Below, one piece after another: positions 2,076 through 64,000 of a stretch of 64,000 nt of DNA (position 1 is the first letter of the stretch; every line of letters begins with the position of its first letter). The notes under the pieces are model-generated. The model had not been told where the DNA came from. It did not search any database and saw nothing but the letters and a program-made list of their open reading frames with translations. A program made the translations under genes and the position numbers. This stretch comes from Bacteroidetes Order II. bacterium (GTDB lineage Bacteria > Bacteroidota > Rhodothermia > Rhodothermales > UBA2364): NCBI GenBank assembly GCA_016788705.1, contig JAEUSQ010000017.1:1-64000 (forward strand), in the 5' to 3' direction.

Positions 2076-2222
2076 TTTAAAATATTTAATTAAAGTATTA
2101 TAGATAAGGATTTAAATTTAATAAAGTGTAGTGAAATGATTTTAAATTTTAAGTCATATTATTCAATAGCAAAATGATTAAAAATATTTTTATGAGATGA
2201 AATTTGATCTTTACTCCTCAGG

Positions 2223-2259
2223 AAAAGCACCCTGTAACGGAAGGTAACAAGGTGCTTTT
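2223..2259 (-). terminator. Hairpin terminator
   Basis: AAAAGCACC pairs perfectly with GGTGCTTTT across a 19-nt loop, just past the stop of the 1202-aa-class surface protein gene. It ends in four T on the minus strand, which fits a rho-independent terminator for that gene. Confidence 0.6.
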
Positions 2260-2282
2260 CGGAGGGATCAGCGGAAGGGTTT

Positions 2283-5200: not shown

Positions 5201-5849
5201 GCGTTGTATGTCCCACTTGTCGCTGCGGAATCGAGGCTGCCCCTCCTTGCGCAAAACTGGTAATGACCAATCCATTTTCAAAGTATCCAGTTGAGGTTAC
5301 AGCCGATTTGTTTGCCGTATAACTTGCATCTCCTGATGGCGCCGCTGGAGTAGGTGTTGGATTACCTGCGCGATGGATCACATTGTATAAATCAGGTACA
5401 AAGGTTGCCTCTCCGCCATACTCTCCTGGATAAAACAGCGCGAAGTTTGCCGTGCGTGTACCTGCCGATGTATTGGCCAAAAACTGCACCGATGTACCAT
5501 GTGCTCCACCACCGAGGGCCGCATAGTCTATGCCATCATCCGCAAAACAAGTCCCGGTGGGTATGGTAAATTCCACCCGCACGGCCCCTGTACAACCCGA
5601 AAGGCTGTAGTTGGGCGCACTCGCCGCCGTTGTCGTTTGGGTGGTGCCACATTGGCTGCCTGCGGTATCATAGGCTTTTACCTCAACCCCCGCCACCAAT
5701 GGCTCGGCGCTTTCTTTTGTGCCATTGCCGTTAAAATCACGAAACACCGTTCCCGTGATTTGTCCGAACGCAATCTCATTATATATAAACAAGAAGGCGA
5801 TGACAGCCCACAACTGTTTTTTTGAAACAATGTGTTTAATTCTTTTCAT
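2283..5849 (-). CDS. Large SdrD_B/DUF11 surface protein with propeller-like domain
   Basis: Encodes 1188 aa from the ATG at 5849. A longer reading starts at 5891, but its extra 14 residues precede a good signal peptide ([12 protein letters not shown]...AFGQ). Order of parts: an SdrD_B-like module ([16 protein letters not shown]); a region of about 500 aa resembling a beta-propeller ([28 protein letters not shown]); a second SdrD_B module ([17 protein letters not shown]) with Asp-rich calcium-binding-like loops; Ig-like Cys/NNGT modules; a SpaA/prealbumin-like insert ([12 protein letters not shown]); and a terminal DUF11. It shares its architecture with the gene running off the right window edge and its tail with the gene downstream. 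No T9SS sorting tail was seen. A cell-surface or matrix role is inferred from repeat types. Confidence 0.85.
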
Positions 5850-6110
5850 ACGTATTGCTGATTTTAACCAAAGACAAAACCAAAGCCACATAGGGCTTGA
5901 TATATAGTCCTGGAGACAACAAACAATATGCCTTACGGCGCGACGTATTTAACTGCTTCATCAATATTACCTTTATAACCTCTAAATATGACACCTGCAA
6001 AATATTTAGTTTAAAAATTTAAAATTTAATACTTTATGGAAATGATGCCTGAATTTGAATTTGCAATGTGTCATCTTATTTTACAAAAAAGTTATGGCTA
6101 ATACAGTTGT

Positions 6111-6695
6111 ATGAAATATCCCAATCCTGATCCCAATTTACAGGGAGATTTGACCCTGCTGCTAAAAGAGTTGAACCAAGGCAACCTCCAAGCCTGGGAG
6201 GAATTATTACGAAGAACCTACCCTCAATTGTGCTTATTGTCTTCCGACCTGCGATCTAAGTTTGAGAAAGGACCCAATGACACCCTCAATACCAAAGCAT
6301 TGGTACACGAGACGTTTCTAAGTTTGTTTTATAGCCAGCAAATTGAATGGAAAAATCGCCTCCATTTTTATATGACTGCTGCAAAAGCCATGCGATACGT
6401 TTTACTTAACCATCAACGAGGGAAAAATCGGTATAAACGTGGAGGCGACGCCGAGCATGTGCCCTTTGACGAAACAGACTTTACTCCGCAAATGGATGGC
6501 AGAACTGAAAAATTAATAGAAGCCTTGGAACTACTTTCAGAAACACATCCTCGCGGGTATCAAGTCGTTCATCTTCGCTTTTTTCTAAAAATGAAAGAAT
6601 CCGAGATCGCTGAACTATTAGGACTATCTTCCCGAACCATTATACGGGATTGGCTCCTTGCAAAAGCACTACTGGCCAAATATCTGACAGAATGA
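6111..6695 (+). CDS. ECF-type RNA polymerase sigma factor (kinase-linked group)
   Basis: Encodes 194 aa, the usual length for an ECF sigma factor. The sigma-2 region covers about residues 20-105 (ALVHETFLSLF, then FYMTAAKAMRYVLLNHQRGK). The sigma-4 helix-turn-helix lies at about 140-192 (LRFFLKMKESEIAELLGLSSRTI). The GTKALVHE-like motif and basic NHQRGKNRYKRGG segment are typical of Pfam Sigma70_ECF (PF07638), a group often encoded beside Ser/Thr kinases. The next gene, 34 bp downstream, is such a kinase, so regulation by phosphorylation rather than by an anti-sigma factor is likely. That link is inferred from the known ECF-kinase groups. The two divergent surface-protein genes upstream are possible targets but nothing in the sequence proves it. 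Confidence 0.88.
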   Translation: MKYPNPDPNLQGDLTLLLKELNQGNLQAWEELLRRTYPQLCLLSSDLRSKFEKGPNDTLNTKALVHETFLSLFYSQQIEWKNRLHFYMTAAKAMRYVLLNHQRGKNRYKRGGDAEHVPFDETDFTPQMDGRTEKLIEALELLSETHPRGYQVVHLRFFLKMKESEIAELLGLSSRTIIRDWLLAKALLAKYLTE

Positions 6696-6729
6696 AGATC
6701 CACCGTTGTACTGAATAGAAAAGATTCAT

Positions 6730-9459
6730 ATGATTTCCGTAACACAGACCTTAGGACAATTAGGGCCTTATTTAGAGCAGTTGGTAGCGGCTCCTCCCGA
6801 CGAACGTTCGCAAATATTGGTTAGATTTGGCCAAGAAAATCCGGAATTGAAAGACACGCTCTCCGCTCTTCTGGAAGCATTTTTGGCACATGGTGACAAG
6901 GTAGATGCACTATTTGCACATTTTGAAGACGGAAAGCCCGAAAAAGAAACCGCTACATCAGGCGGATCTTTAGCCAGAGGCACAATTATTGAAAAGTATG
7001 AAGTTATTTCCTTTTTGGGCGCTGGCGGTATGGGTGAGGTCTATAAAGCACAACGACATGGACATATTGAACAAGTTGTTGCGTTAAAGGTTTTTCGCCA
7101 GCAATTCGACTCCATCAACTTGGCAAAGCATTTTGAACAAGAACAAAAGTTCCTCGCACGGCTCAATCATCCACATATCGCTCACTTCATAGATGCCGGA
7201 CAAACACTGTTAGGACAACCCTATCTGGCTATGGAATTGGTACTAGGGATACCAATAACTGATTATTGCGATGCAAAACACCTAAATTTAACGCAACGAT
7301 TATTGCTTTTCTTACAAATTTGTGAAGCACTACAATATGCACACCAGCAACAAATTATTCATCGAGACATAAAGCCAGCCAATATTCTAGTAACCGAAGG
7401 CGGTCAGGTGAAAATATTAGACTTTGGCATCGCCCGTTCTTTAGAAGAAGAAAAACCCTCACAAACCCTTCAATGGCTATTTACCCCCGATTTTGCGAGC
7501 CCGGAGCAGTTTAAGCAAGAAACCCTTACGCCGGCATCGGATGTGTATAGCTTGGGGATTTTATTGTTTGTTTTGCTCGTAGGACAACGACCATATCGTT
7601 TAGAACAGGCCGCACCGTTCGTGTTGTGGCAAGTCTTTCAGCAAACTCCCTTCCCGAAACTGCACCAAGCCGTTTGGCAAACTTTTGGAGCCGTTTCCCA
7701 CGACCCCTTCAGGGTAGCCACCCAACGAAGTACCACACCAAGAAAATTGACCAAAGAAGTGAAGGGGGACTTAACACGAATTGTTGATAAAGCGGCATCA
7801 CGGGATGTAAACAACCGATACGCTTCGGTACAAGCCTTGGCCGATGACATCTCCCGCTTTATCGCTCAAAAGCCCATTCAAGCAAGACCTCCGGGAATTG
7901 GGTATCGGATCCACCGATTTGTAAACCGCCACTTTGCCCCTATCGCCGCAGTTTTGACCGTTCTGGTGCTTACCAGTCTGGGCTTTGCTTATTTTCTTTA
8001 TCAAGAGGCACAAAAGACACAAGCCAAATTCGCAGAAAACCAAGCCATTCAACAATTCATCACCTCATTTCTTTTTGATGACCAATTGGGCATCAATAGT
8101 GGTTTACAGCTCGATTCATTGCAGACCCAAAAATTTCTAAACCTTGCTACGTTTAGAATCGAGAAAGACCTTCAAAAGATACCCCGTGCCCAACTTAGCG
8201 TTTGGCGGTCGTTGATAGACTTCGCCCTGCAAAGACGACTCTTTGGGGAAGTAGAAAACATGATGGCGCGTCTTGAACCCCAAATGGCGCGTTATCCGGA
8301 TCTGATGGCCGGACTTTTAGGACAAAAAACAGTTTTATCTATTTACAAAGGCCATCCACCCCGGAAGTCACTGGCATATGTAGCGCAGGCCAAACAATTA
8401 TTGGCCCAATACCCAAATCCTGAAATTGCCACCGAAGTAATGATCGCCGAGGGGGTACTACGGGGTGAAAGTGGCGAATGGCAGAGCGCCCAACATCTAT
8501 TGGAACACGCATTACAAAATCGTCGAGCGGGGTGCGTAAGCGGGCCTTGCATCGGCACATTCAATGTATTGCAGCATTTGGGGGATTTGTGGAGCCATCA
8601 GAAACAGTATAACAAAGCATTGCCCTATTATCAGGAAGTCTTACAAGCCCTCAAAAATAGGTTAGGGGAAAATCATGTTTTGCTTGTGGTCCCAAATGCC
8701 AATATGGGGTCTTTGCTGACCCAATTAGGGCACTATGAACGTGCAAAAATACACTATAAAGAAGCATTGCGCATCAATGATTTGCATTTCCAATCCACAC
8801 ACGACGACCGCCAGATGATCCTTCTGGGGATGGCAAGCGTAGAAAGCAGGCAAGGGCATAAAGAACGTGCCCTCACGCACTTCCAACAAATTCTGATGAT
8901 TCAGAAGCAGGCTGCCGGAGAGGACTCCTTTCCTGTCGGGCTGACCTATAGAAAACTTGCCCAAACATATTTGGACCTTAACCGACCACAAGCAGCATTA
9001 GAACCAGCTACAAAATCCTTACATATTTTTGAAGAGAATTTTGGCCCCGTTCACCCCGAAACCCTTATCGCCAAATTGCTGGCAGCAGAAACCTATCTCT
9101 ACAACAACCAACCCAAACAATCCGAAAAAATAATCCAGCAAATGCTCGGTTCCGAAACAAAGTGGATGCAACAAGAGCCACTCACTTCTGCAAGGGCTAC
9201 ATTGCTATTGGGCTGGATAATGGTGGCCATGCAAAAACATCCTGAAGCCAAACAGATTGTGGAAACATTAAGGCCGTTTTTTGAAAGAAAAATGGTGTTT
9301 CCAGCTGAGTTAGAGGGCGATTGGGAGTGTTTCCAAGGCATTCTACTTCGCAACGAGAACCCATCTGCCGGTGGAGCACTTTTGGAAAAAGGCAGACAAA
9401 AATGGGTGCTTGTCCGCTGGAAGAATCATGCCTTTGGCCATTTTTTAGATCGTCTGTGA
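6730..9459 (+). CDS. Membrane Ser/Thr protein kinase with TPR sensor domain
   Basis: Encodes 909 aa. A Hanks-type kinase domain spans about residues 90-380: glycine loop GAGGMGEV near 97-104, the ATP lysine in VALKVF, the catalytic loop HRDIKPAN with Asp 213, DFG at 231-233, and an SPE version of the APE motif. A transmembrane helix follows at about 400-425, then roughly 480 residues of helical TPR-like repeats, likely extracytoplasmic. The first 85 residues form a helical region of the kind seen in other ECF-associated kinases. It lies just behind the ECF sigma gene, so the pair probably forms one signalling unit. The signal sensed by the TPR part is unknown. Confidence 0.9.
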   Translation: MISVTQTLGQLGPYLEQLVAAPPDERSQILVRFGQENPELKDTLSALLEAFLAHGDKVDALFAHFEDGKPEKETATSGGSLARGTIIEKYEVISFLGAGGMGEVYKAQRHGHIEQVVALKVFRQQFDSINLAKHFEQEQKFLARLNHPHIAHFIDAGQTLLGQPYLAMELVLGIPITDYCDAKHLNLTQRLLLFLQICEALQYAHQQQIIHRDIKPANILVTEGGQVKILDFGIARSLEEEKPSQTLQWLFTPDFASPEQFKQETLTPASDVYSLGILLFVLLVGQRPYRLEQAAPFVLWQVFQQTPFPKLHQAVWQTFGAVSHDPFRVATQRSTTPRKLTKEVKGDLTRIVDKAASRDVNNRYASVQALADDISRFIAQKPIQARPPGIGYRIHRFVNRHFAPIAAVLTVLVLTSLGFAYFLYQEAQKTQAKFAENQAIQQFITSFLFDDQLGINSGLQLDSLQTQKFLNLATFRIEKDLQKIPRAQLSVWRSLIDFALQRRLFGEVENMMARLEPQMARYPDLMAGLLGQKTVLSIYKGHPPRKSLAYVAQAKQLLAQYPNPEIATEVMIAEGVLRGESGEWQSAQHLLEHALQNRRAGCVSGPCIGTFNVLQHLGDLWSHQKQYNKALPYYQEVLQALKNRLGENHVLLVVPNANMGSLLTQLGHYERAKIHYKEALRINDLHFQSTHDDRQMILLGMASVESRQGHKERALTHFQQILMIQKQAAGEDSFPVGLTYRKLAQTYLDLNRPQAALEPATKSLHIFEENFGPVHPETLIAKLLAAETYLYNNQPKQSEKIIQQMLGSETKWMQQEPLTSARATLLLGWIMVAMQKHPEAKQIVETLRPFFERKMVFPAELEGDWECFQGILLRNENPSAGGALLEKGRQKWVLVRWKNHAFGHFLDRL

Positions 9460-40822: not shown

Positions 40823-43102
40823 ATGCTACATCGTTTTTTGGGTTTTGTTATCCTCCTATTCCTTTGTTCCTTGGCGCCAACATACGCCCAAAATGCTTCT
40901 CTAAGCGGATATGTGCGAGACGCCTCATCGGGCGAAACATTGATTCAAGCTACCGTTCTGATACAAGGCACAACCACTGGCACGGTTACCAATACCAGTG
41001 GATACTATACCCTTAGCCGACTCAAAGCAGGCACTTATACCGTTTCCTGCTCCTATATAGGTTACAAAACGAACCGCTTTTCTGTGATTTTATCTGAAGG
41101 GCAAGCCCTTACTTTAGACATTCGTCTAGAACCGGAAGATACCTCGGTGGAAGTAACCGTAACCTCAGACCGCGAAGAGGCGGAACAACGCAATGTGGGA
41201 GTTACCCAAATGTCGGTCTCTACGATCACCCGTTTGCCATCGGTTTTGCAGGCAGATGTTTTCCGGTCTTTGCAATTATTACCGGGGATTAAGAGTTCTT
41301 CGGATTTCTCCAGCGGTTTGTACATTCGGGGTGGCAGTCCCGATCAAACCTTGATTATGTTAGACCGAACAACGGTCTATAACCCCACCCATATCTTCGG
41401 GTTTTTCTCCACCTTCAACCCCGACGCCATTAAGGATGTAAAACTCTACAAAGGCGGCTATCCGGCAGAGTATGGCGGGCGTCTGGGCTCGGTGGTGGAT
41501 ATCTACAATAAAGAGGGGAACCGCAAGCAGGTGCAAGGCGTCGCGAGTTTGGGTTTATTATCCTCCCGCATTGCGTTAGAGGGGCCCCTTCAACAAGAGA
41601 AGAGCAGTTGGATGCTGGCTGCGCGGCGCTCTACAACCGAGCCTGTTTTGGCCGTCTTGCGCAACCTGAAAGATGAAGACGGCAAGCCACGGTTCCAAGG
41701 CATTCCGGACAATTTTTATTTCTACGACTTTAATGGGAAGTTTACCTATGACTCTACACCCAAAGACAAGGTGAGCTTAGGTTTTTATGCCGGACAAGAT
41801 AATGTGAGCATTCCGGTTGGCGAGCAAACGGCGTTTAGGGTACGGTACGGGAACGTAACGGGCAATACGAATTGGACGCATATTTTCTCCCCCCAACTTT
41901 TTTCCAACTTTACGTTTACTGGATCCCGCTACTTTAGTAGTCCGAGTGGAAAAATTGCCTCCACCGAATTCAAACGCCGGAATGAGGTGACGGAATGGTC
42001 TGCCAAAGGAGATTTTGAATATATTCCTAATCCGGCACATCAAGTGCAAGTGGGGTTTTGGGCCGGGCGTATGACCATTTTCCTGCAAGACTCGTTTAAT
42101 GAGATCACAAATGAGGTGCTAGACATCCAAACGCCTTATGTATCGGGCTACGCACAAGAAACATGGCGTCCTAATATCCAGTGGTCTTTAAAGGCTGGAC
42201 TACGGGCCAATTATTTTGGCGATGGGAATTATTTACGCCTCGAACCACGCCTTTCTGCCGATTTTACATATAGCGAATGGCTTCGCATCCAAGCCGCCTA
42301 TGGACGTTATTACCAATTTTTATCGCTTATCACCAACGAAGCCTTCTCTGGGTTTGATGTTTGGGTAACGGCAGACGACGGCGTTAAGCCTGCATGGGGC
42401 GACCAGTTTTTATTGGGAATTAAAACCAAACCTTTCAAGGGATGGAATTTGGATGTAGAAGGGTATTATCGCAATATGAACGACCTCTTCGACTTAGACC
42501 CCTTTTTGAGTGACACCGCCGGATTGCCCTATAACAAACTCTTCCGATTTGGACAAGGATATGCGTGGGGAACCGAGTTCTTCTTGGAAAAATATGCGGG
42601 TCGGTTGAATGGTTTTGTAGGCTATACCTTTGGACGAACTTGGCGAAAGTTTCCCAATATCAACAATGGCGCGTATTACCCACCCAAGTACGACCGAACA
42701 CACGACCTAAATGTGACCGCCAACTACGACTTGTCTTCCAAATGGACGGCAACGGCTGTTTTTTCTTATGCCACTGGTCAAGCCTATACCGAGCCTTTGG
42801 GACGAACCTATATCAATAGCCCATTTGGGGAAGGCTCTGCCAATATCGGCGGGGATGTGCTGACGGTAGGTAAACTCAATGCAAGCCGTTTACCTGCCTA
42901 CCATCGTCTGGATGTGGGTTTTACCCGTAAAGGCAACGTAGGTAGCTGGGGGAAATCGGAGTTACAGCTACAATTGATCAATGCATATTCGCACCGAAAC
43001 ATCTGGTTTTATCAATATGACTTCGAGGCGAACCCAGTCAAGCGTATAGACACCCTTCAACTACCGATCCTTCCTAATATAGCCTACACCATCCGGTTCT
43101 AA
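40823..43102 (+). CDS. TonB-dependent receptor with carboxypeptidase-like plug extension
   Basis: Encodes 759 aa. Signal peptide ends TYAQ. The N-terminal CarboxypepD_reg-like domain (about 25-110; LSGYVRDASSGETLIQATVL) precedes the plug (about 120-230; SGLYIRGGSPDQTLIMLDRT) and a barrel of about 500 residues ending in a final Phe (IAYTIRF), the usual outer-membrane signal. It probably imports a peptide, siderophore or other ligand using TonB energy. The DUF4249 lipoprotein gene follows 13 bp later. A similar pair lies on the other strand at 57-60 kb, and the two receptors share sequence along their length. Confidence 0.93.
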   Translation: MLHRFLGFVILLFLCSLAPTYAQNASLSGYVRDASSGETLIQATVLIQGTTTGTVTNTSGYYTLSRLKAGTYTVSCSYIGYKTNRFSVILSEGQALTLDIRLEPEDTSVEVTVTSDREEAEQRNVGVTQMSVSTITRLPSVLQADVFRSLQLLPGIKSSSDFSSGLYIRGGSPDQTLIMLDRTTVYNPTHIFGFFSTFNPDAIKDVKLYKGGYPAEYGGRLGSVVDIYNKEGNRKQVQGVASLGLLSSRIALEGPLQQEKSSWMLAARRSTTEPVLAVLRNLKDEDGKPRFQGIPDNFYFYDFNGKFTYDSTPKDKVSLGFYAGQDNVSIPVGEQTAFRVRYGNVTGNTNWTHIFSPQLFSNFTFTGSRYFSSPSGKIASTEFKRRNEVTEWSAKGDFEYIPNPAHQVQVGFWAGRMTIFLQDSFNEITNEVLDIQTPYVSGYAQETWRPNIQWSLKAGLRANYFGDGNYLRLEPRLSADFTYSEWLRIQAAYGRYYQFLSLITNEAFSGFDVWVTADDGVKPAWGDQFLLGIKTKPFKGWNLDVEGYYRNMNDLFDLDPFLSDTAGLPYNKLFRFGQGYAWGTEFFLEKYAGRLNGFVGYTFGRTWRKFPNINNGAYYPPKYDRTHDLNVTANYDLSSKWTATAVFSYATGQAYTEPLGRTYINSPFGEGSANIGGDVLTVGKLNASRLPAYHRLDVGFTRKGNVGSWGKSELQLQLINAYSHRNIWFYQYDFEANPVKRIDTLQLPILPNIAYTIRF

Positions 43103-43115
43103 ATCATTTTTTCTT

Positions 43116-44015
43116 ATGAATACCTTTTTTCGTCCAGTAAAAATCATATCTCTCCTCTTGCTCATCGGTTTGGTGAACGGATGCGACACCTACCAGCAAG
43201 ACGCCTATAAAAAACAATATGTGGTACAGGGGTATCTCATCGCGCTTGAGCCGTTGAGTCCTATCTCGGTCTCTGCTACCGTACCGCTCAATGAAGTATA
43301 TAGTTTAGAAGCGACAGCGGTAAAAAATGCAACAGTGGAGGTGCAGCTATTAAATACACAGGGCCAGCCGGAAAAAACGTTTATTTATGTGGCCGATCCA
43401 GACTCGGTGAGTATGTTCAAGCCTTTAGATACCACATCCTTGGTAATGCCCAATCGCACCTATTCACTACGTATTACCTTTCCAGACCACCCTGAAGTGA
43501 TCAGTGCAAAAACTTTGGTTCCTGATACCATGCGTGTAATCCGAACCAATGGAGACACGTTTAAGTATCAGCAGCAGCCCCAATTTGAGCAACTGATTAG
43601 TCCCAGCTTAAACCCCAATCGTCAGGCATATTTTATCTTCTCGGTAGAGGGTCTAACCCCCTCTACGGCCAATCTGGTACCTTTCTGGGATCCGGAGAAT
43701 GGTTTTGGCGGAGACCGCAAGCCCCCTAAGGTGTATGCTTCGCCCATTTTGAATGAAGCCAACTACCGCACGCCCGAAGGCAATCTACTGGTACAACTGC
43801 CTTGGTTAACGGTGGTGTATTTTGGGAGAAACCGCGTTACAACCACCGTATTAGACGATGCGACCTACAACTTCTTCCGCACACAATCGGTTCAATTAGG
43901 CGGTTCCACCCTCTCACCCGGCGAAATTCCAAATGCCGTCACCAATGTTGTGGGTGGAACAGGTGTTTTTGGCAGTTTGGCACAGGCTACTTCACTGATG
44001 ACCGTCACACGATAA
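43116..44015 (+). CDS. DUF4249-family lipoprotein
   Basis: Encodes 299 aa with lipobox VNGC (Cys 23). The DUF4249 pattern is clear: QYVVQGYLIALEPLSPISVS at the start of the mature part, LVMPNRTYSLRITFP in the middle, and a C-terminal VTNVVGGTGVFGSLAQA. DUF4249 proteins pair with TonB receptors in Bacteroidota and probably act as surface-exposed partners of the receptor. Its stop overlaps, on the other strand, the end of a decayed frame. Confidence 0.88.
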   Translation: MNTFFRPVKIISLLLLIGLVNGCDTYQQDAYKKQYVVQGYLIALEPLSPISVSATVPLNEVYSLEATAVKNATVEVQLLNTQGQPEKTFIYVADPDSVSMFKPLDTTSLVMPNRTYSLRITFPDHPEVISAKTLVPDTMRVIRTNGDTFKYQQQPQFEQLISPSLNPNRQAYFIFSVEGLTPSTANLVPFWDPENGFGGDRKPPKVYASPILNEANYRTPEGNLLVQLPWLTVVYFGRNRVTTTVLDDATYNFFRTQSVQLGGSTLSPGEIPNAVTNVVGGTGVFGSLAQATSLMTVTR

Positions 44016-55284: not shown

Positions 55285-55320
55285 AAAAGCGAAATCTACT
55301 TATGTAGATTTCGCTTTTTT
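55285..55320. terminator. Strong bidirectional terminator
   Basis: AAAAGCGAAATCTAC pairs perfectly with GTAGATTTCGCTTTT across a 4-nt loop, with T tracts on both strands. It serves the S9 peptidase gene on the plus strand and the LytTR operon on the minus strand. Confidence 0.85.
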
Positions 55321-55369: not shown

Positions 55370-56074
55370 TTATTTATTATCCCTAATAACTTTTGTTAAG
55401 TTATCGCGATATGTACTCCCTACCGGCAGGCTTTTCATACCAATTTTTAACATTTTTTTTTCAACCATAGATATCTTCTTTACATTAACCAAATATGATT
55501 TATGAATTCGAATGAAATGTCTTTCTGCTAATAATTCTTCAAGGGATTTCAGGGCGTTTAAGGAAATAACTTGTTCTCCATTTTCAAGGTGATACATTAC
55601 ATATTCCCTTAAACCCTCTATGTAAAGAATATCATTATATTTAATCTTAACAGTTTTATAACCAGATTTTACCCAAAACAAATCATCTTCTACTGGTACA
55701 CGTCCATTGACCTTATTACCCATACGTTCCTTTGCTCTAGTTATAGCCATCAAGAAACGGTCGTAGCTAAAGGGTTTCAACAAATAATCAACAACCCCTA
55801 AATCAAACCCCTCTATCGCAAATTGGTTATATGCAGTTGTTAAAATTGTGTAAGGTTTTATATTTAAATTTCTATACAAATCTAAGCCACTCATTTCAGG
55901 AAGATTAATATCCAGAAACACGATATCTGGTTGATTCTTTTGCAAATATGTCAATGCTAAATCGGCATTTGAGAACATAGATAGCAAGGTTAAACCTTGC
56001 GTTATTTCAATATATTTAATCAAAAGTTGTGTAGCAGGGAATTCATCTTCAATGATGACACAAGTTGCATTCAT
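55370..56074 (-). CDS. LytTR response regulator (AlgR/AgrA-type), second of two
   Basis: Encodes 234 aa. The receiver has phospho-acceptor Asp 55 (FLDINLPE) and Lys in LLKPFSY. The C-terminal LytTR DNA-binding domain is at about 130-234 (DILYIEGLREYVMYHLENGE, then LLAERHFIRIHKSYLVN). Its ATG overlaps the LytS-type kinase stop by 4 nt, so they are a pair. It closes the peptide-receptor operon. Likely target: the direct repeats upstream of the peptide genes, an inference. Confidence 0.93.
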   Translation of the reverse strand: MNATCVIIEDEFPATQLLIKYIEITQGLTLLSMFSNADLALTYLQKNQPDIVFLDINLPEMSGLDLYRNLNIKPYTILTTAYNQFAIEGFDLGVVDYLLKPFSYDRFLMAITRAKERMGNKVNGRVPVEDDLFWVKSGYKTVKIKYNDILYIEGLREYVMYHLENGEQVISLNALKSLEELLAERHFIRIHKSYLVNVKKISMVEKKMLKIGMKSLPVGSTYRDNLTKVIRDNK

Positions 56075-57159
56075 ATATTTATAGAGAATGAAAGTTTTGC
56101 ATGAAACAAGGCGTTATTGTTATTATCTAACGAGAGAACATATCTACCTGGGAATAACAATTCAAGTCGTTTTCGTAAATTATCCAGGCCTACTCCTGAA
56201 GAATTGGTACTCTTTGATCGCCCTATAAAATTTTCAGTTGTTACCTCAACTTGTCCATTCTGTTCTTTTATCTCTATTTTAAAAAAAGGGCTCTTAACAC
56301 CAGCCGTCCCGTGTATAAACATATTTTCGATGAGCGGTAGTATAAGCAATGGTGGAACCATCAAACCTGCTGAAGTTGTATTTACAGTAAAATCAAAATT
56401 TGAATAATCATATTTAACAAGCTGCAATGCACAAAATTTTTTCAGAAAATCAATATCTTTTTCCAAAGTTATCAAACTAGTATTCGATTCATATAATATA
56501 TAACGCATTAAATCAGATAGTTGAAGAATTAATTGAGGTGCACGAGAATCTCCAACAAAAGAGAACGAATATATATTGTTTAGAGCATTAAAGAAGAAAT
56601 GTGGATTTAATTGTGTTCTTAACAAAGACAATGATTGTATATTCTGTTCATTTGATACAAGCACTTTATTGATAAAAACTGCCATCATATCATAAAAAAA
56701 AGTTATCAAAACAGTAATCAATATTGTAATAAATCTTAACAAGATATAACGATTAGAATAAAAATAATCAACAATATCTAATGAAAATTTTTTTGCAATA
56801 TAACTATTTATACTAACTAATAAAGACAGTGAAACACATAATAGAATAATTACCCCAAGAACATACAATATTAATGACTTATGTTTATAATAATATTTAG
56901 AAAACAATACTAGACTATTAACAACTCCTGCTAAAATAGCAATTGTGTATGTCACAAATGACAATAAAATAACTGCATAAATAGAAATATTTAATAAACT
57001 ATAATCTATAATTGTAATAACCACAAGCATACATGTTGTAGAAATTATTACATTTTTCAACAAAACAAAATTATTATCTTTAGGGAATATTATTTTCCCC
57101 CATAATGCCATACAATCTTTTTCAAACAAAAGATTTATTAATCTTTTTTTAAGATTCAT
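56071..57159 (-). CDS. LytS/YehU-type sensor histidine kinase
   Basis: Encodes 362 aa. Four membrane helices fill about residues 33-162. The His_kinase (PF06580) box follows: LRTQLNPHFFFNALNNIYSF, with His 187 the phospho-acceptor. The HATPase has an N-box and SGVGLDNLRKRLELLF. The DNA for the membrane part (56700-57150) is far richer in A/T than the neighbours, partly from Ile/Phe/Asn codons. It lies 11 nt after the DUF4249 gene, in line with a receptor-linked sensing role. Confidence 0.9.
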   Translation of the reverse strand: MNLKKRLINLLFEKDCMALWGKIIFPKDNNFVLLKNVIISTTCMLVVITIIDYSLLNISIYAVILLSFVTYTIAILAGVVNSLVLFSKYYYKHKSLILYVLGVIILLCVSLSLLVSINSYIAKKFSLDIVDYFYSNRYILLRFITILITVLITFFYDMMAVFINKVLVSNEQNIQSLSLLRTQLNPHFFFNALNNIYSFSFVGDSRAPQLILQLSDLMRYILYESNTSLITLEKDIDFLKKFCALQLVKYDYSNFDFTVNTTSAGLMVPPLLILPLIENMFIHGTAGVKSPFFKIEIKEQNGQVEVTTENFIGRSKSTNSSGVGLDNLRKRLELLFPGRYVLSLDNNNNALFHAKLSFSINI

Positions 57160-57170
57160 AATCTGATTTA

Positions 57171-58073
57171 TTATGGATGAACTTCAATGACATTGGTCAG
57201 GGTGCTATAACTTCCAAATATCCCTACACCACCCGCCAGATGCGTAATAGCATTGGGCATTTCTCCTGGCCCAAAACGCCCAAATTGCTGCTGCTGTTGG
57301 GATTGCGAGCGATAAAAATCCACCATGTTTTGATCTATGTTGTGTAGATTGACCCTTGTTCTACCAAAATGGGTAATAGAAATCCATAGCATGTTAATGA
57401 CAATGTTACCAGTGATATCTTTCTCATAATTGTCTTCATTAAAGAGCGGAGAAGAATAGACATGTGGTGTTTCATCCAGATTGAAGGGGTTGTTTCCGGG
57501 CTTCCAAAAGGGAACAACCCTATCCTCTTGCGCATCTAAACTTTCTGCCGAAAAAATATAATGGCACTTGGCCTCGTGTTCTTTTTTACATGGGCTAATA
57601 GTGGCTTGATAGGAAGGCGATTGTTCGTACCGAAACGTTTTCCCATTTGTATTAACCAATCTCAAAACATCCGGCACGACGGTTTCTCCTGTGATCATTT
57701 TGTTTTGTTCCAATAGCGTTACTTCAATGCGGTACTGTCTATTTGGTAGTACGGTCTTAAGGCTGCTTGTGGGAAGATACGAACCCGACACCTCGGATGA
57801 CAGGGCATAAAAAATGGTTTCCTCAATCTGACCGTTTTTATCTATCAAGTGGATCTTGACTTGGGCTTTGGGAGGAACATATGTATCGGGAAAAACGGCC
57901 TCGTGTACAAACAAGGTCTCCCTCACGGATACAGGCGGGAAAGGCGCTTCTGCCTGAAGATAGGCTTCAACAAGGGGCAGGCGTGTTTCAGATGGAGCAG
58001 CGGAATCACATCCCGAAAGGACTGCGATGGTTAGGGTCAAACACCAACGAAAAATGAAATCAAAAAATCGCAT
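57171..58073 (-). CDS. DUF4249-family lipoprotein, second copy
   Basis: Encodes 300 aa with lipobox LSGC (Cys 22). Same pattern as the copy at 43 kb: RLPLVEAYLQAEAPFPPVSV, VLPNRQYRIEVTLLEQNK, NGKTFRYEQSPSYQATISPC and a final PNAITHLAGGVGIFGS. A paired Cys (CKKEHEAKCHY) is unique to this copy. It overlaps the TonB receptor stop by 14 nt. Probably the receptor's lipoprotein partner. Confidence 0.86.
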   Translation of the reverse strand: MRFFDFIFRWCLTLTIAVLSGCDSAAPSETRLPLVEAYLQAEAPFPPVSVRETLFVHEAVFPDTYVPPKAQVKIHLIDKNGQIEETIFYALSSEVSGSYLPTSSLKTVLPNRQYRIEVTLLEQNKMITGETVVPDVLRLVNTNGKTFRYEQSPSYQATISPCKKEHEAKCHYIFSAESLDAQEDRVVPFWKPGNNPFNLDETPHVYSSPLFNEDNYEKDITGNIVINMLWISITHFGRTRVNLHNIDQNMVDFYRSQSQQQQQFGRFGPGEMPNAITHLAGGVGIFGSYSTLTNVIEVHP

Positions 58074-60258
58074 GGAACGACAGGTTAGGAATAAAAGGAA
58101 GTTGACGGACAGCTACTCTTCCGGGTTCCGTTTTTTGGATATTATAAGTGTAATACCATACATTTCGGTGGTTGTACACATTAAACAAACTACAGGTCCA
58201 TTTTTTTAAAAACCCCCACCTCGATAGGCTGCTTTTGGAGACATTAAAGTCTAACCGATGATAAGCTGGTAGGGTGCTATTGTTAAGCGCAGGAGAAAAC
58301 CAGACAGTCCCACCGATATTATTAAAGGTAGTCCCAAACGGATTGGGCAATTGGGCATAACCCGTTGGTCGGGTATAGGGCTGGCCGCTGGCCCAGGTAA
58401 AGAAGGTTCCAATTTGCCATTTCTTATTCAGGTCAAAAGCAGCATTTAGGGTAAGGTCATGTAATCGGTTATACCGTGGTTGAAAGTACCTACCGTTATT
58501 CAGGGCATCAAACCGACGAGTCGTTTGGCTTAAGACATAAGTCGCATTCCATTGTAGTCGTTCATTGGTTTTGGCGCGTATCTGAATCTCCAAACCTCTG
58601 GCTTTTCCTTCGCCCCAAACCAATAATTCGGCATAGGGTTTATTGCCTAAATCGGCCAAGAACGGATCTAAGGTAAATATCCGAGACATCTTTCGATAAT
58701 AAGCATCGAACTGAATCTCCACCTGTTTGTCGGGTCGGTATTTGGTGCCGATGGAAAATTGTTGGGTGGTAGAGGGAGATTTATCTTCGGGAAGTAACAA
58801 CCAAGCATCAAAGCCAGAGAATGCCTCATTCGACACCAAGGAGAGCCATTGGTGAGAACGGTTATACGCCACTTCGTGCTGCCATGCTCCTTGTGCTTTT
58901 TGGATGACCACACGTGGTTCTGGATAGAAATGGCCATCGGCTGTTCGGGTTGTTCGGATTCCCCATTGCACCCCGAAGCCATGTGGAAAATTTCTGTTTC
59001 GTTGGAGGTATCCCAAGAGTTGTCTTCCAGAGTGATTCGGCAGTTCAACATATATTCCGGCAAACCAATCTTGCCAAATCATATCGGTTTGGGTTGTTTT
59101 AAGACCTGCTTCCCAAGCGGCATTTGGCTGCTCCCACATCCAACTGAGTTCTGCCCCTGTTTCGTGTACGCGACTATCCCGCTTTGCACCCGTATCTCCC
59201 AATGTACCCACTGGCTTGCCATGATACCTCGATTGCGTAAGTCGGAGGCGAATCAGTTTCCCTTTTTGATATACAGTCCGGGCTTCGGCCACCTGAAGTG
59301 CATTTTTGTACCAAAGATCCAACCCTAAGCCATTTAGCAGTGACATTTTCAAGGCATCTTCGCTGGAAAAATGCGTGACGTGTACCGAGGTTTTGCGACC
59401 AATGGCTATTTTTAAGCGCAAATTCAGGTCTCTAAAGCCCAGTTTTTCCGGTATATCAGTGTTAGAATCGTTCAACAGGTTTAAAACCGGATTGAGGGTA
59501 GAGACCCTCCCGCCAAGCATCCAATGCAAACGGTTATATTTTCCTGTCGTACTTCCTTTGAAACTGAGCAGCCCCAAAGAAACCGAGGTTTCGGGTTTTC
59601 CGCCCTCTTTACTCTCTAAGGATAAGACGCTTCCCATGCGTCCCCCCAGAGAGGCAGGAGCACCACCTTTATGCAGCGTCACGGTTGAAATGGCTTCGGG
59701 ATTGAAAGCGGAAAAAAATCCAAAAAAATGACTGGGATTAAACACCGTTGCTCCATCTAAGAGGATGAGTGTTTGGTCTGGGCTTCCACCCCGGATGTAG
59801 AGACCACTCGAGAAGTCGGACGATTGCTTGACACCGGGTATCATACGCAGTGATCGGAAGATATCCGCCTCCAAAACAGTGGGCGCACCCGCCAGGTCGC
59901 TCACCTGAAGAGAATTTGTAGATAAAGGAGGGGCGAATTTATGCTTTTCCCCTGTAATGTCCACCGACCAAATGGTACTTCTTAATGCACAACGAAGGCT
60001 TTTTTCGGTATCCGACACCTTCAGAATCGTAGGTTCAAAACCAGGAAAGCTGCACACAATCTGCGTGGGTGTACCTGCAAAGAAAAATCGCCCTAAAGAG
60101 TCGGCTTGTGTAATGAACCGACCAGATGTTAGACTTATATTCGCGAAGGGGATGCTCTGGCCAGTTTCACCGTCTAAGACCACGCCATGTACATTTTGTG
60201 CTAAAAGGGTTATTGAGGAACCCCAAAGAAAAAGCACCGTGAACCGAAAAGATTTCAT
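58060..60258 (-). CDS. TonB-dependent receptor, second copy
   Basis: Encodes 732 aa. Signal peptide ends TLLAQ. A CarboxypepD_reg-like domain (about 22-90; VHGVVLDGETGQSIPFANIS) precedes the plug (SGLYIRGGSPDQTLILLDGA, nearly the same as in the 41-kb receptor) and a barrel ending in Phe (LSFHAIF). The start follows the second peptide gene by 19 nt. Because it shares a transcript with two leader peptides, a LytS kinase and a LytTR regulator, its ligand may be one of those peptides. That is inference. Confidence 0.92.
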   Translation of the reverse strand: MKSFRFTVLFLWGSSITLLAQNVHGVVLDGETGQSIPFANISLTSGRFITQADSLGRFFFAGTPTQIVCSFPGFEPTILKVSDTEKSLRCALRSTIWSVDITGEKHKFAPPLSTNSLQVSDLAGAPTVLEADIFRSLRMIPGVKQSSDFSSGLYIRGGSPDQTLILLDGATVFNPSHFFGFFSAFNPEAISTVTLHKGGAPASLGGRMGSVLSLESKEGGKPETSVSLGLLSFKGSTTGKYNRLHWMLGGRVSTLNPVLNLLNDSNTDIPEKLGFRDLNLRLKIAIGRKTSVHVTHFSSEDALKMSLLNGLGLDLWYKNALQVAEARTVYQKGKLIRLRLTQSRYHGKPVGTLGDTGAKRDSRVHETGAELSWMWEQPNAAWEAGLKTTQTDMIWQDWFAGIYVELPNHSGRQLLGYLQRNRNFPHGFGVQWGIRTTRTADGHFYPEPRVVIQKAQGAWQHEVAYNRSHQWLSLVSNEAFSGFDAWLLLPEDKSPSTTQQFSIGTKYRPDKQVEIQFDAYYRKMSRIFTLDPFLADLGNKPYAELLVWGEGKARGLEIQIRAKTNERLQWNATYVLSQTTRRFDALNNGRYFQPRYNRLHDLTLNAAFDLNKKWQIGTFFTWASGQPYTRPTGYAQLPNPFGTTFNNIGGTVWFSPALNNSTLPAYHRLDFNVSKSSLSRWGFLKKWTCSLFNVYNHRNVWYYTYNIQKTEPGRVAVRQLPFIPNLSFHAIF

Positions 60259-60277
60259 TTCAGGAGAGGGTTAAATA

Positions 60278-60592
60278 TCAGGAAGTTGGATTGAATAAGT
60301 TGCCCAATACCGATCCTAAATTGATTTCGCCTTTATACGAACGAAACAGTTTAAAGGGATTTGGGAACAACTCCTTCAACATGACCCCGCTAATGGCTTT
60401 CACATGTGGTCTAAGCGCACCCCAGTTTCGGATAAAAAACCCAATAGGGGGCTTCACGCGGTAGGTAAATTTTGAAGGGTCACTTAGGTTTAAGTGAATG
60501 CCTTTCCGGTCTAGTTGAAAGTGAATGCCACCCTTGATCTCGCTCGCTTCTATTTCGGTAAGGGCATTTTGCTGAAAAGAGTTAATTTTCAT
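60278..60592 (-). CDS. Double-glycine-leader peptide precursor B
   Basis: Encodes 104 aa from ATG 60592; a longer frame from 60667 lacks a leader-like start. Leader: MKINSFQQNALTEIEASEIKGG, with GG at 21-22, of the type cut by C39-peptidase transporters. The predicted mature part (82 aa) begins IHFQLDRKGIHLNL and is basic with Phe/Pro-rich segments. It lines up with precursor A over its whole length (G-G-x-x-x-Q-x-x-x-K-G-[IV]-x-L). No Cys. Bacteriocin-like or signalling peptide; no known family recognised. Confidence 0.72.
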   Translation of the reverse strand: MKINSFQQNALTEIEASEIKGGIHFQLDRKGIHLNLSDPSKFTYRVKPPIGFFIRNWGALRPHVKAISGVMLKELFPNPFKLFRSYKGEINLGSVLGNLFNPTS

Positions 60593-60676
60593 GACTTTGT
60601 TGTTTGAGATACTAAAGCCCTCTATCCTTAGGGGACAAAGGGCTGTCACACCGTGCAGATTAACCATGTAAAATGC

Positions 60677-60940
60677 TTATTTTTTGAACAGTGAGAACAA
60701 GTTTTTGAAGATGCTATTGGTTCCAAAGAGTCCGGTTGAGTTCAGCGTATTCCGGAAATTGCGGATATCTTGAATAGAAAACCGGATGGCATCCCCAATG
60801 CCAAATTGCAAACTACCAGTTTGATTCCAGTCCAACTGCACCCCTTTTCCAGTAAACTGAACCAAAAGACCACCTTTTACATCGTGGGCTTGTTCATCGG
60901 AAATGGCAAACTCTTGAAGGTTGTGGGTATTGTTTTTCAT
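60677..60940 (-). CDS. Double-glycine-leader peptide precursor A
   Basis: Encodes 87 aa. Leader MKNNTHNLQEFAISDEQAHD ends VKGG at 21-24. Mature part (63 aa) begins LLVQFTGKGVQLDW and ends with a hydrophobic/basic SIFKNLFSLFKK, which looks amphipathic. Homologous to precursor B, 84 bp downstream. It is the first gene of a minus-strand operon and has LytTR-type repeats upstream. No ABC peptidase transporter is found in the window, so export would rely on one elsewhere. Confidence 0.72.
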   Translation of the reverse strand: MKNNTHNLQEFAISDEQAHDVKGGLLVQFTGKGVQLDWNQTGSLQFGIGDAIRFSIQDIRNFRNTLNSTGLFGTNSIFKNLFSLFKK

Positions 60941-61012
60941 GTTTCTAATTGGTTATTAATCGTGCCTACTCTTGCGGATTTTCGGCTATCTCCTGTATTT
61001 GCCTCCTATGAT

Positions 61013-61065
61013 ACCTACCTGAGGCCAAGAGATTACCCCCGAAAGAAGGCTTTCAATCAGTAGGT
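61013..61065. repeat. Inverted repeat in the peptide-operon leader
   Basis: ACCTACCTGA at 61013-61022 can pair with TCAGTAGGT at 61057-61065, with one bulged C. On the plus strand it is followed by T7. On the minus strand it lies in the presumed 5' leader of the peptide mRNA and could fold there. Confidence 0.4.
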
Positions 61066-61072
61066 CTTTTTT

Positions 61073-61101
61073 TGCAACGAAGAAAGGAAAAAGTGCAACG
61101 A
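61073..61101 (-). promoter_or_regulatory. Candidate LytTR binding direct repeats
   Basis: TCGTTGCA occurs twice on the minus strand (61101-61094 and 61080-61073), starts exactly 21 bp apart, separated by 13 bp. LytTR regulators are known to bind paired direct repeats of about 9 bp spaced 12-13 bp, with a GTT core. Here the GTT core is kept but the outer bases fit the published consensus only partly. They are 133 bp upstream of precursor A. Confidence 0.5.
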
Positions 61102-61117
61102 GAACCAGAATTTTCGG

Positions 61118-61155
61118 CAATACCCATTTTAAGAAACAATACCCATTTTAAGAAA
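61118..61155. repeat. Perfect 19-bp tandem duplication
   Basis: CAATACCCATTTTAAGAAA occurs twice in a row. The second copy spans the stop codon of the upstream LytTR gene, so it looks like a recent local duplication at the gene's 3' end. Confidence 0.8.
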
Positions 61156-61879
61156 GTTGCCCTTCGGGTTCTATTTTTAGCTGTTCTAGAAAGCGCGTTC
61201 TGAACTTTTGCCCAACGGGTAGGGTCTTTTTGGAGATTACTACTTCCGTCTTACTAAAGGATTTGATCTTTTCTATTGAAATCGCGTAAGACTTATGAAT
61301 CTGTATAAATCTATTTTCAGGAAGTAACTTAAACAACTGATTAAATGATAAACGAATAATCAACTTACTCTTAGTTAAATGTACGATTAAGAATTCCTTT
61401 GACGACTCAATATATTCAATGTCATTCAAGTATATTTTATGTAGCTTTCTATCACTCCTTAGCCAAAAAAAATCATTTTCTATCATTACTTCATTATTAA
61501 TATTACTTTGCCACTGTATCATTTCAACGGCTTTATTTACCGCTTGTGCAAATCTTTCAAAAGATGCTGGCTTAAGGATATAATCTACCAAATTAAACGT
61601 ATAGCCTTTCAGAGCATATTCATCATAGGCCGTTATGACAATCACTTGTGGCCGTTTATGCATAAAATTTAACAATTCAAAGCCATCATATCCGGGCATC
61701 CTAATATCTAAGAAGAGCAATTCAACCTCCTTAAAAATACGTTCTTTTTGAAATGCTTCAGGGTTTTCAAATGAACCAATCAGTTCTAATTGATGCGGAA
61801 GCATAGCAATGTATTGACACAACAAATGGCGTGCAGGCGCTTCGTCATCTAAGACAGCGCAAGTTACAGGGCGGTTCAT
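61148..61879 (-). CDS. LytTR response regulator, first of two
   Basis: Encodes 243 aa. Receiver with Asp 11-Asp 12, phospho-acceptor Asp 58 (LLFLDIRMPG) and Lys in YILKPASF. LytTR domain at about 135-235 (DIEYIESSKEFLIVHLTKSK, then LLPENRFIQIHKSYAIS). It lies just upstream of the peptide operon in the same orientation, with the 21-bp-spaced repeats between them. No kinase is directly beside it, so the LytS kinase at 56-57 kb may phosphorylate both regulators. That is inference. Confidence 0.92.
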   Translation of the reverse strand: MNRPVTCAVLDDEAPARHLLCQYIAMLPHQLELIGSFENPEAFQKERIFKEVELLFLDIRMPGYDGFELLNFMHKRPQVIVITAYDEYALKGYTFNLVDYILKPASFERFAQAVNKAVEMIQWQSNINNEVMIENDFFWLRSDRKLHKIYLNDIEYIESSKEFLIVHLTKSKLIIRLSFNQLFKLLPENRFIQIHKSYAISIEKIKSFSKTEVVISKKTLPVGQKFRTRFLEQLKIEPEGQLS

Positions 61880-62127
61880 ACAAGCAGACTTTTATCAAAA
61901 AAATGGCGGTGATTCAATAAACCTCTACTCAAACATTTTGTTTCTCTGGACAACTTTAGGTTGCTTTTTTAAAACGGATTATTTTTCAATTTTAAATTGT
62001 TTTTCCAAGACAAATATGCACTTCGTTTAATAAAAACACCACTTCATTGAATATCGCCCCCTTGAGTGACAGTAGGGTATGCCGTTTGTACATGATCACC
62101 AACATGTTTAACCATACCCAATGTATT

Positions 62128-64000
62128 ATGTATTTACTTACCCCCAGTCGAGTCCGCAAAGTCCAAATTAGATCGCCTTTTCAGATTTCAACCTTGCCTA
62201 TTCTATTTTTTTTCATTGGTTTAGGCCAGGTTTATGGACAGGTGACGGGAGCAGTTTTCCGGGACTTTGACGGCAATGGAACCCGTGGTACCAATGAACC
62301 GTTGGTCTCGGGCGTAACCGTAACGGCCTATGGCACCTCTGGCACTTCATGTGGTACAGCCACAACGTCTGGAAATACTGCACCCAACTACACCTTAACA
62401 GGATGTGGCACAGGTGCGGTTCGGGTAGAGTTTGTATTGCCAAGCACTGGAAGATGCGTCAACTCTGGTGTTGATTATGCTTCTCTGAGTGGCACCACCT
62501 ACGGAACATCCATTCAGTTTGTCAATGGGAACAGCACCAATGTCAACTTTGGGGTATATAATCCCGCTAATTACAATACGGGGGCTGCAAATACCAACGT
62601 TGTGATTCCAGTGCACACCAACGGTAACCCCTTGCTTAGTGGGACTTCCCAGAGTGACGATTGGATTGTCGGCTTTCCCTACAACAATACGGGCACCACT
62701 ACCCCCGCACAGCGCCTGAATGGGGCAACCGTGGGCGCCACTTGGGGCACAGCCTATAGCAAGCAGGCAGAAAAAATATTTACTTCTGCCTTTATCAAAA
62801 GGCATGTAGGATTAGGGGTTTTGGGCAGTGGTGGTATTTATGCCCTTTCTCCCACAGCATCTTCTTTTACCCCGTCCAACTTTTTTGACTTCGATAGCCC
62901 CACGAATGCATTATTGTCCACACCTTCAACGGTTTCGGCTGCCCCCACACGATGCGCTTCTGGCTGCCCTGCATATGGAGCCGGCACTTCGTTCAATATT
63001 GTCTCCAATGCCGAAGCCACGTATCTCGGATCAACGGACCCGTTAACTGGGCAACCCCTTGGCTTGGGAGTAGTCGGAACGAATGCCCAGCGGGGTTTAT
63101 TGGCAGATAAAACCCAGCCCAGCCGCGATCCCGCAGCCATGGATCAAGTGGGTAAAGTAGGGTTGGGTGATTTAGACATCAGCGATGACGGACGTTTTCT
63201 TTTTGCAGCCAACTTGTATGACCGAAAAATCTATCGCCTGACCTTAAACGATCCACAAAACCCCACACATGTCACAGACATTGCCAGCTACGCGCTACCC
63301 AGTGTAACCGTAACCAATGGTGTATTGAGGCCCTTTGCACTCAAATTTTATCGGGATAAACTTTATGTGGGCGCTGTTGCCACTGGCGAGAACGTAACCG
63401 ACGATAGCAACAGTAATTTATTTGCTTATGTATTTCAATTAGATACCCCCACGGCAAGTGCGACATTCCAATCCACACCAATCATTACCCATCAACTAAA
63501 TTATAACCGAGGTACACCCAATAGTGGGGCCAGCTATACGGGGCAGGATCGTTGGTATCCATGGTCTAAGAATGCCTATGACTTTTTTGGTATTGCACGT
63601 CCCTCACCAATGCTTACTGGCCTTGACTTTACCGATAGGGGTGATATGATGTTAGCCTTTACCGACCGCTTTGGCCACCAATATGGTCATCAGAATTATC
63701 GTTTTTTGGGTAATCCTGGATATAGCGACTTAGTAACGTCGCAAATAGCGGGAGATCTAATTATTGCCGGAATTAATTGCTCGACGAATACCTTCACAAT
63801 GGAAAGCAATGGAAGTTTTACGTCCAATGGGCAATCATTATCCGGTGGAACAGCGAATGGCCAAGGTCCTGGTAACGGTGAGTTTTTCAATGGAGAGAAC
63901 CAAAACACAACCCATACCGAGACCTCCCAAGGCGCTATTGGTGTTTTGTTTGGACAAGCCCAAGTTATGCTCACCAACATGAACCCAACTACCAGTATTT
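62128..64000 (+). CDS. SdrD_B/propeller surface protein, 3' end outside window
   Basis: At least 624 aa, open at the window end. ATGs at 62092 and 62104 are also in frame; 62128 gives a signal peptide closest to the mature start (LPILFFFIGLGQVYGQ). The SdrD_B module VFRDFDGNGTRGTNEPLVSG opens the mature part, then the same propeller-like region as the 1188-aa protein at the left edge (VGLGDLDISDDGRFLFAANL, RPFALKFYRDKLYVG). The two are paralogues, so this gene probably continues with repeat modules and a DUF11 end. It is divergent from the LytTR gene; the 250-bp AT-rich gap would hold both promoters. Confidence 0.85.
   Translation, partial: MYLLTPSRVRKVQIRSPFQISTLPILFFFIGLGQVYGQVTGAVFRDFDGNGTRGTNEPLVSGVTVTAYGTSGTSCGTATTSGNTAPNYTLTGCGTGAVRVEFVLPSTGRCVNSGVDYASLSGTTYGTSIQFVNGNSTNVNFGVYNPANYNTGAANTNVVIPVHTNGNPLLSGTSQSDDWIVGFPYNNTGTTTPAQRLNGATVGATWGTAYSKQAEKIFTSAFIKRHVGLGVLGSGGIYALSPTASSFTPSNFFDFDSPTNALLSTPSTVSAAPTRCASGCPAYGAGTSFNIVSNAEATYLGSTDPLTGQPLGLGVVGTNAQRGLLADKTQPSRDPAAMDQVGKVGLGDLDISDDGRFLFAANLYDRKIYRLTLNDPQNPTHVTDIASYALPSVTVTNGVLRPFALKFYRDKLYVGAVATGENVTDDSNSNLFAYVFQLDTPTASATFQSTPIITHQLNYNRGTPNSGASYTGQDRWYPWSKNAYDFFGIARPSPMLTGLDFTDRGDMMLAFTDRFGHQYGHQNYRFLGNPGYSDLVTSQIAGDLIIAGINCSTNTFTMESNGSFTSNGQSLSGGTANGQGPGNGEFFNGENQNTTHTETSQGAIGVLFGQAQVMLTNMNPTTSI

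Follow-up and report, generated by a model that had tools for sequence, protein, structure and literature searches.

Peptides that a bacterium with an outer membrane has exported are too large to return through porins, and little is known about how such cells sense or recapture them. One locus raises this question in concrete form: in a window of 64,000 nucleotides from Bacteroidetes Order II. bacterium (genome G000, genus UBA2364; contig JAEUSQ010000017.1, positions 1 to 64,000), seven open reading frames on the minus strand between positions 55370 and 61879 encode a LytTR regulator, two small peptides with double-glycine (GG) leaders, a TonB-dependent receptor, a DUF4249 lipoprotein, a LytS-type histidine kinase and a further LytTR regulator (Table 1). 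All seven genes listed in an initial annotation of this DNA are present, and both regulators, the His_kinase domain of the kinase, the TonB plug of the receptor and the DUF4249 domain score above the Pfam gathering thresholds, in agreement with the domains assigned there. The operon combines known parts in a new way and is so far confined to one genus. A search of open-licence papers found none describing such a system, and the annotation knew of no Bacteroidota system with this exact set. By packaging GG peptides with a TonB receptor, its probable lid and a sensor kinase, the locus provides a concrete and testable model.

Both peptides begin with a short leader that ends in KGG and has the polar-hydrophobic pattern of GG leaders (24 amino acids in peptide A and 22 in peptide B), followed by a basic, cysteine-free core of 63 and 82 amino acids, respectively. 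The leaders are kept in a congener, Bacteroidetes bacterium UBA2364 (G001). The homology proposed between the two peptides withstood a shuffle test and is accompanied by conservation in G001: the cores align over about 60 residues with a local score of 44, matched by 3 of 5,000 shuffles, and the shared region is larger than the KG[IV]xL motif found in both. Translation of peptide B starts at the ATG at 60592, which gives a 104-amino-acid precursor with the leader MKINSFQQNALTEIEASEIKGG and is conserved in G001; another ATG, at 60667, lacks a counterpart there and was rejected. The precursors are predicted to be cleaved after KGG and exported. Neither peptide belongs to a Pfam family, matches an NCBIfam model above cut-off or has a credible relative in the PDB, and a comparison of peptide A with viral contigs found no relative.

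The entire operon recurs in G001 in the same order, split over two contigs. Contig C126 runs from a divergent gene for an SdrD-like protein through LytTR2, peptides A and B, the receptor and DUF4249 into the kinase, and contig C90 carries the remainder of the kinase, LytTR1 and an S9 peptidase gene. Between the two genomes, peptide A differs by a single amino acid (nonsynonymous divergence (dN) 0.005, synonymous divergence (dS) 0.66), compared with about 13 changes expected at the rate of the receptor (Poisson P = 4e-5), which is itself 87% identical (dN 0.064, dS 0.73). Peptide B (dN 0.073, dS 0.80) and LytTR2 (dN 0.083, dS 0.55; 84% amino acid identity) have diverged further. These substitution rates show extreme purifying selection on peptide A, and because the syntenic locus keeps both peptides, with selection on A and B, the pair is unlikely to be a product of chance. 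In a further member of the genus, G002, no match to either peptide was found and the S9 peptidase gene is followed by genes other than those in the window; gain, loss or relocation of the locus must therefore have occurred within the genus. A peptide profile run against 394 genomes of the phylum returned nothing credible outside the genus: three weak matches (E 0.005–0.01) contained internal stop codons and were read as chance. Within G000 itself, a weak match beyond the two peptides (contig C56, E 0.9) was set aside because its surroundings are unrelated. Of the search across Bacteroidota that the annotation had proposed for cores and gene order, synteny thus held in G001 and homologues beyond the genus did not appear.

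Tight spacing and a closing terminator support the single operon originally proposed. The pepA and pepB genes are separated by 84 bp, pepB and the receptor gene by 19 bp and the DUF4249 and kinase genes by 11 bp, the receptor and DUF4249 genes overlap by 14 bp and those of the kinase and LytTR1 by 4 bp, and the terminator is common to the operon and the convergent S9 peptidase gene. LytTR2, which lies 207 bp upstream of pepA, may be transcribed separately.

Table 1 Features of the GG-peptide operon and its flanks in the window
Feature	Position	Strand	Details
LytTR response regulator 2 (LytTR2), first gene of block	61148..61879	-	243 amino acids (aa); Receiver 52 bits and LytTR 55 bits (Pfam); guanine-cytosine (GC) content 35%
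Conserved leader, 5' region of peptide operon	60941..61078	-	129 of 138 positions identical to G001
DUF805b-like cis-regulatory RNA (RF02914)	60963..60995	-	33.7 bits; identical in G001
GG-leader peptide A (pepA)	60677..60940	-	87 aa; leader ..HDVKGG; 63-aa Cys-free core, net +4; dN/dS <0.01
GG-leader peptide B (pepB)	60278..60592	-	104 aa; leader ..SEIKGG; 82-aa Cys-free core, net +8; start kept in G001
TonB-dependent receptor	58060..60258	-	732 aa; plug; N-terminal CarboxypepD_reg-like domain below cut-off
DUF4249 lipoprotein (probable transporter lid)	57171..58073	-	300 aa; 52.4 bits, cut-off 28.5; LSGC lipobox
LytS-type histidine kinase	56071..57159	-	362 aa; His_kinase (PF06580) 72 bits; GC 27%, GC at third codon positions (GC3) 19%
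LytTR response regulator 1 (LytTR1)	55370..56074	-	234 aa; Receiver 65 bits and LytTR 62 bits
Intrinsic terminator hairpin	55285..55318	.	15-bp stem, TTAT loop, T run; read from sequence

The region upstream of the peptides is also conserved. In the 138 bp preceding pepA, 129 positions (93%) are identical in G001, compared with 62% at four-fold sites of the operon (P about 1e-17), and conservation is lost in the sequence just upstream. Within this leader lies a match to the RNA family RF02914 (DUF805b) that scores 33.7 bits (E 1e-5 over the 64-kb window) against a gathering threshold of 35.6; as the score is 1.9 bits under that threshold, we call the element DUF805b-like. It shares with the family its sequence, its stem (GGA/UCC for GGN/NCC, with GCC/GGC at the XCC...GGY pairing) and its spacing from the start codon, with 24 nt between the end of AGTAGG and the ATG of pepA, and differs in its score and in having a peptide operon as its target. 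RF02914 matches occur in 57 of 198 genomes of the phylum, and at approximately 30 inspected loci the element lies mostly 16–31 nt upstream of a start codon, a position that suggests translational control. The genes that follow are diverse and include those for rhodopsin, subtilase and DUF6520 proteins. At one such locus (L091) the element precedes a GG peptide and then a C39 transporter, and at another (L083) a small peptide and then a protein that looks ATP-grasp-like by eye. Across 36 RF02914 matches (loci L056–L100 and the element at 60963–60995 of the window, a few sites being represented twice), the nucleotide preceding CCGAAAA and the one following AGTAGG form a pair in 35, compared with 18.6 predicted from column composition, through G-C, U-A, A-U and G-U pairs. 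This covariation suggests a pseudoknot that is not displayed in the cmscan consensus line. The conserved leader (60941–61067) also contains CCTACT, the exact complement of AGTAGG, so that an alternative pairing is possible, and each of the three genomes of the genus has another DUF805b-like element, in front of an aquaporin gene (L063 on contig C7 of G000, L062 on C40 of G001 and L058 on C1 of G002). A consensus Bacteroidota promoter (TANNTTTG) was not found in the pepA leader with one mismatch allowed, and sigma-70-like sites in it did not exceed those in shuffled sequences.

Where the receptor and lipoprotein come from can be followed more widely. The receptor gene lies directly before that of a lipoprotein with an LSGC lipobox, the arrangement found phylum-wide and exemplified by BT2172/BT2173, and DUF4249 has been proposed as a lid working with the TonB-dependent transporter (PMC11003636, citing Price et al. 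2023). All 21 genomes searched in the genus and order have a receptor about 33–37% identical to that of the operon, usually with DUF4249 next, similar DUF4249 proteins occur across the class, and an ordinary class-wide copy of the pair stands in the window itself (40823–44015), 35–36% identical to the operon copy. The operon pair is a second, diverged copy of the class-wide pair; in a receptor tree the two operon copies share a long branch that falls within the class group without a firm placement, which is compatible with duplication as well as transfer. A scan of GTDB species genomes (an 84,980-species collection) with short exact seeds, which detects close relatives only, returned only UBA2364 receptors and remote ones (25–34%), and neither the receptor nor DUF4249 has a usable relative in the PDB.

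The annotation is sound in its observation and its caution, but the wide spread it hoped for did not emerge: peptides and receptor type were found only in the genus. A GG peptide precedes 2 of 63 receptors examined, namely both operon copies, and 60 further receptor loci near DUF4249 genes lack one; the remaining match falls inside a longer reading frame and was read as chance. Unlike the operon pair, other TonB-DUF4249 pairs are almost never accompanied by LytS or LytTR genes. Among approximately 36 loci of the class Bacteroidia (L172–L208), LytTR genes lie near DUF4249 at two, L172 and L205, the latter (1326–8677, genome G416) carrying a receptor, DUF4249, a LytS kinase of 1000 amino acids and a LytTR regulator in the order of the window, with no GG peptide upstream. 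The combination of receptor, DUF4249, kinase and regulator with GG peptides was found only in UBA2364 among the loci examined.

The signalling genes appear to have a different history. GC content falls from about 48% elsewhere in the window, 44–47% in the receptor and DUF4249 genes and 41–43% in the peptides to 35% and 32% in the regulators and 27% in the kinase, so that the LytS and LytTR genes look acquired from an AT-richer source, and the set looks assembled, with acquired signalling genes joined to a native-looking transporter pair. The kinase has four clear hydrophobic segments in its hydropathy profile and no periplasmic domain, and no close homologue outside the genus was found, other kinases reaching at most about 41% identity over partial lengths.

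GG leaders imply an exporter, and the genome search suggested at the outset did recover one: G000 encodes a single C39 peptidase ATP-binding cassette (ABC) transporter with an HlyD partner (contig C10, E 3e-34), unlinked to the operon. Its identity is 95% in G001 and 87% in G002, and because it is equally kept in G002, where the peptides have no match, the exporter is not dedicated to them and must serve other substrates, at least in G002.

What could such an operon do? Its gene order suggests peptide sensing or re-uptake, and we tentatively propose a genus-specific, autoregulated peptide circuit built on the transporter-lid pair, a reading that we consider quite possible yet short of probable. 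The precursors of peptides A and B would be cleaved behind KGG, and the single C39 ABC/HlyD exporter of the genome would carry the products out of the cell. There the TonB receptor of the operon, capped by DUF4249, would bind one or both of them, the near-invariant A being the likeliest ligand, and admit it to the periplasm; the LytS kinase, embedded in the membrane, would perceive it there and drive the LytTR regulators, which in turn would raise expression of the operon in a feedback amplification. Gene order, conservation, selection on the peptides, a conserved leader with a DUF805b-like RNA and one C39 exporter are the observations from which this proposal is built, and the near-invariance of peptide A fits a receptor-matched ligand rather than a fast-evolving bacteriocin. 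More doubtfully, the system could be a Gram-negative pheromone, in which a secreted GG peptide returns to the periplasm by way of a TonB receptor and DUF4249 lid of its own and is sensed there by LytS, the diverged transporter-lid copy having become a signal-uptake port. A model of this kind would also supply a biological ligand for one of the DUF4249 transporters, for which few substrates are known.

The closest known parallels are the plantaricin and Blp-type three-component systems of Lactobacillales, which combine a GG pheromone, an HPK10 kinase and LytTR regulators, with one kinase and two LytTR regulators in plnBCD of the plantaricin system. The operon resembles them in joining GG-leader peptides, a membrane-embedded kinase and LytTR regulators, two of the latter as in plantaricin. 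By contrast, its kinase is of the LytS (PF06580) type rather than the HPK10 class, its host has an outer membrane and the operon includes a TonB receptor and DUF4249, its exporter is unlinked, and its mature peptides are 63–82 amino acids long. Within Bacteroidota, GG-leader peptides with C39 exporters are exemplified by bacteroidetocins and by locus L091, where a DUF805b RNA likewise precedes the peptide gene; no sequence similarity to these peptides was found, and the operon differs in having no linked exporter and in its linkage to receptor and two-component genes.

Several observations weigh against the circuit. Only two genomes carry the operon, so the co-occurrence of its parts is a single phylogenetic observation; the exporter is unlinked and persists without the peptides in G002; mature peptides of this size are large for pheromones; LytS/LytTR pairs abound in the phylum where no peptides accompany them; and AlphaFold models of peptides A and B were unusable (mean predicted local distance difference test (pLDDT) scores 43 and 34) and too poor for fold searches. 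In addition, the G416 locus repeats this gene order with no GG peptide upstream, which makes the ordinary substrate of the receptor a possible input of the kinase. This last point leads to the chief rival, a ligand-induced uptake operon, which we regard as possible but doubtful: the receptor and DUF4249 would import an unrelated substrate such as a nutrient, LytS and LytTR would sense it, and the GG peptides would be exported accessory proteins that capture the ligand or act at the surface rather than signals. Descent from a class-wide pair, the lid function proposed for DUF4249 (PMC11003636, citing Price et al. 2023) and the gene order in G416 all favour it, and the strong constraint on peptide A would equally suit a folded accessory protein. 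However, the operon kinase has no large sensory domain, unlike the 1000-amino-acid kinase of G416, and such peptides accompany no other receptor-DUF4249 pair examined.

An unlikely alternative is a two-peptide, bacteriocin-like system regulated in the manner of plantaricin, in which A and B inhibit rivals, LytS and the two LytTR regulators control production, and the receptor and lipoprotein serve self-recognition or recapture. The two adjacent GG peptides, cationic and cysteine-free, fit this, as does their operon's regulatory set of a single kinase with a pair of LytTR regulators, the same as in plnBCD, but the operon has no evident immunity protein and no exporter or accessory gene, the cores exceed the usual length, and the peptides were not found outside one genus. 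Inside the block, where every gene is otherwise assigned, there is no obvious candidate for a class IIb immunity gene, although one that is unlinked or has a dual function is conceivable. A bacteriocin is less likely because no immunity gene is evident and peptide A, unlike most bacteriocins, is near-invariant between species. Very improbable is a chance assembly, in which, within a single genus, functionally unrelated small proteins came to neighbour a transporter and a two-component system and the GG motifs are coincidental; restriction to two genomes would agree with it, but synteny conserved at dS 0.55–0.80 with selection on both peptides, two homologous precursors each with a GG leader, and a conserved leader RNA argue against it. 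The genus-specific peptide circuit remains our preferred, if tentative, account.

Sequences around LytTR2 were also considered. A perfect tandem 19-bp repeat (CAATACCCATTTTAAGAAA, two copies, about 61118–61155) at the end of LytTR2 was considered as a LytTR site and rejected, being absent in G001. Divergent from LytTR2, at a distance of 167 bp, lies a gene for a large secreted protein (62047–64000) that starts with SdrD-like GAVFRDFDGNG repeats and is kept in G001; this gene is a candidate target of the regulator. A further open reading frame in the window, at 2283–5891, resembles it.

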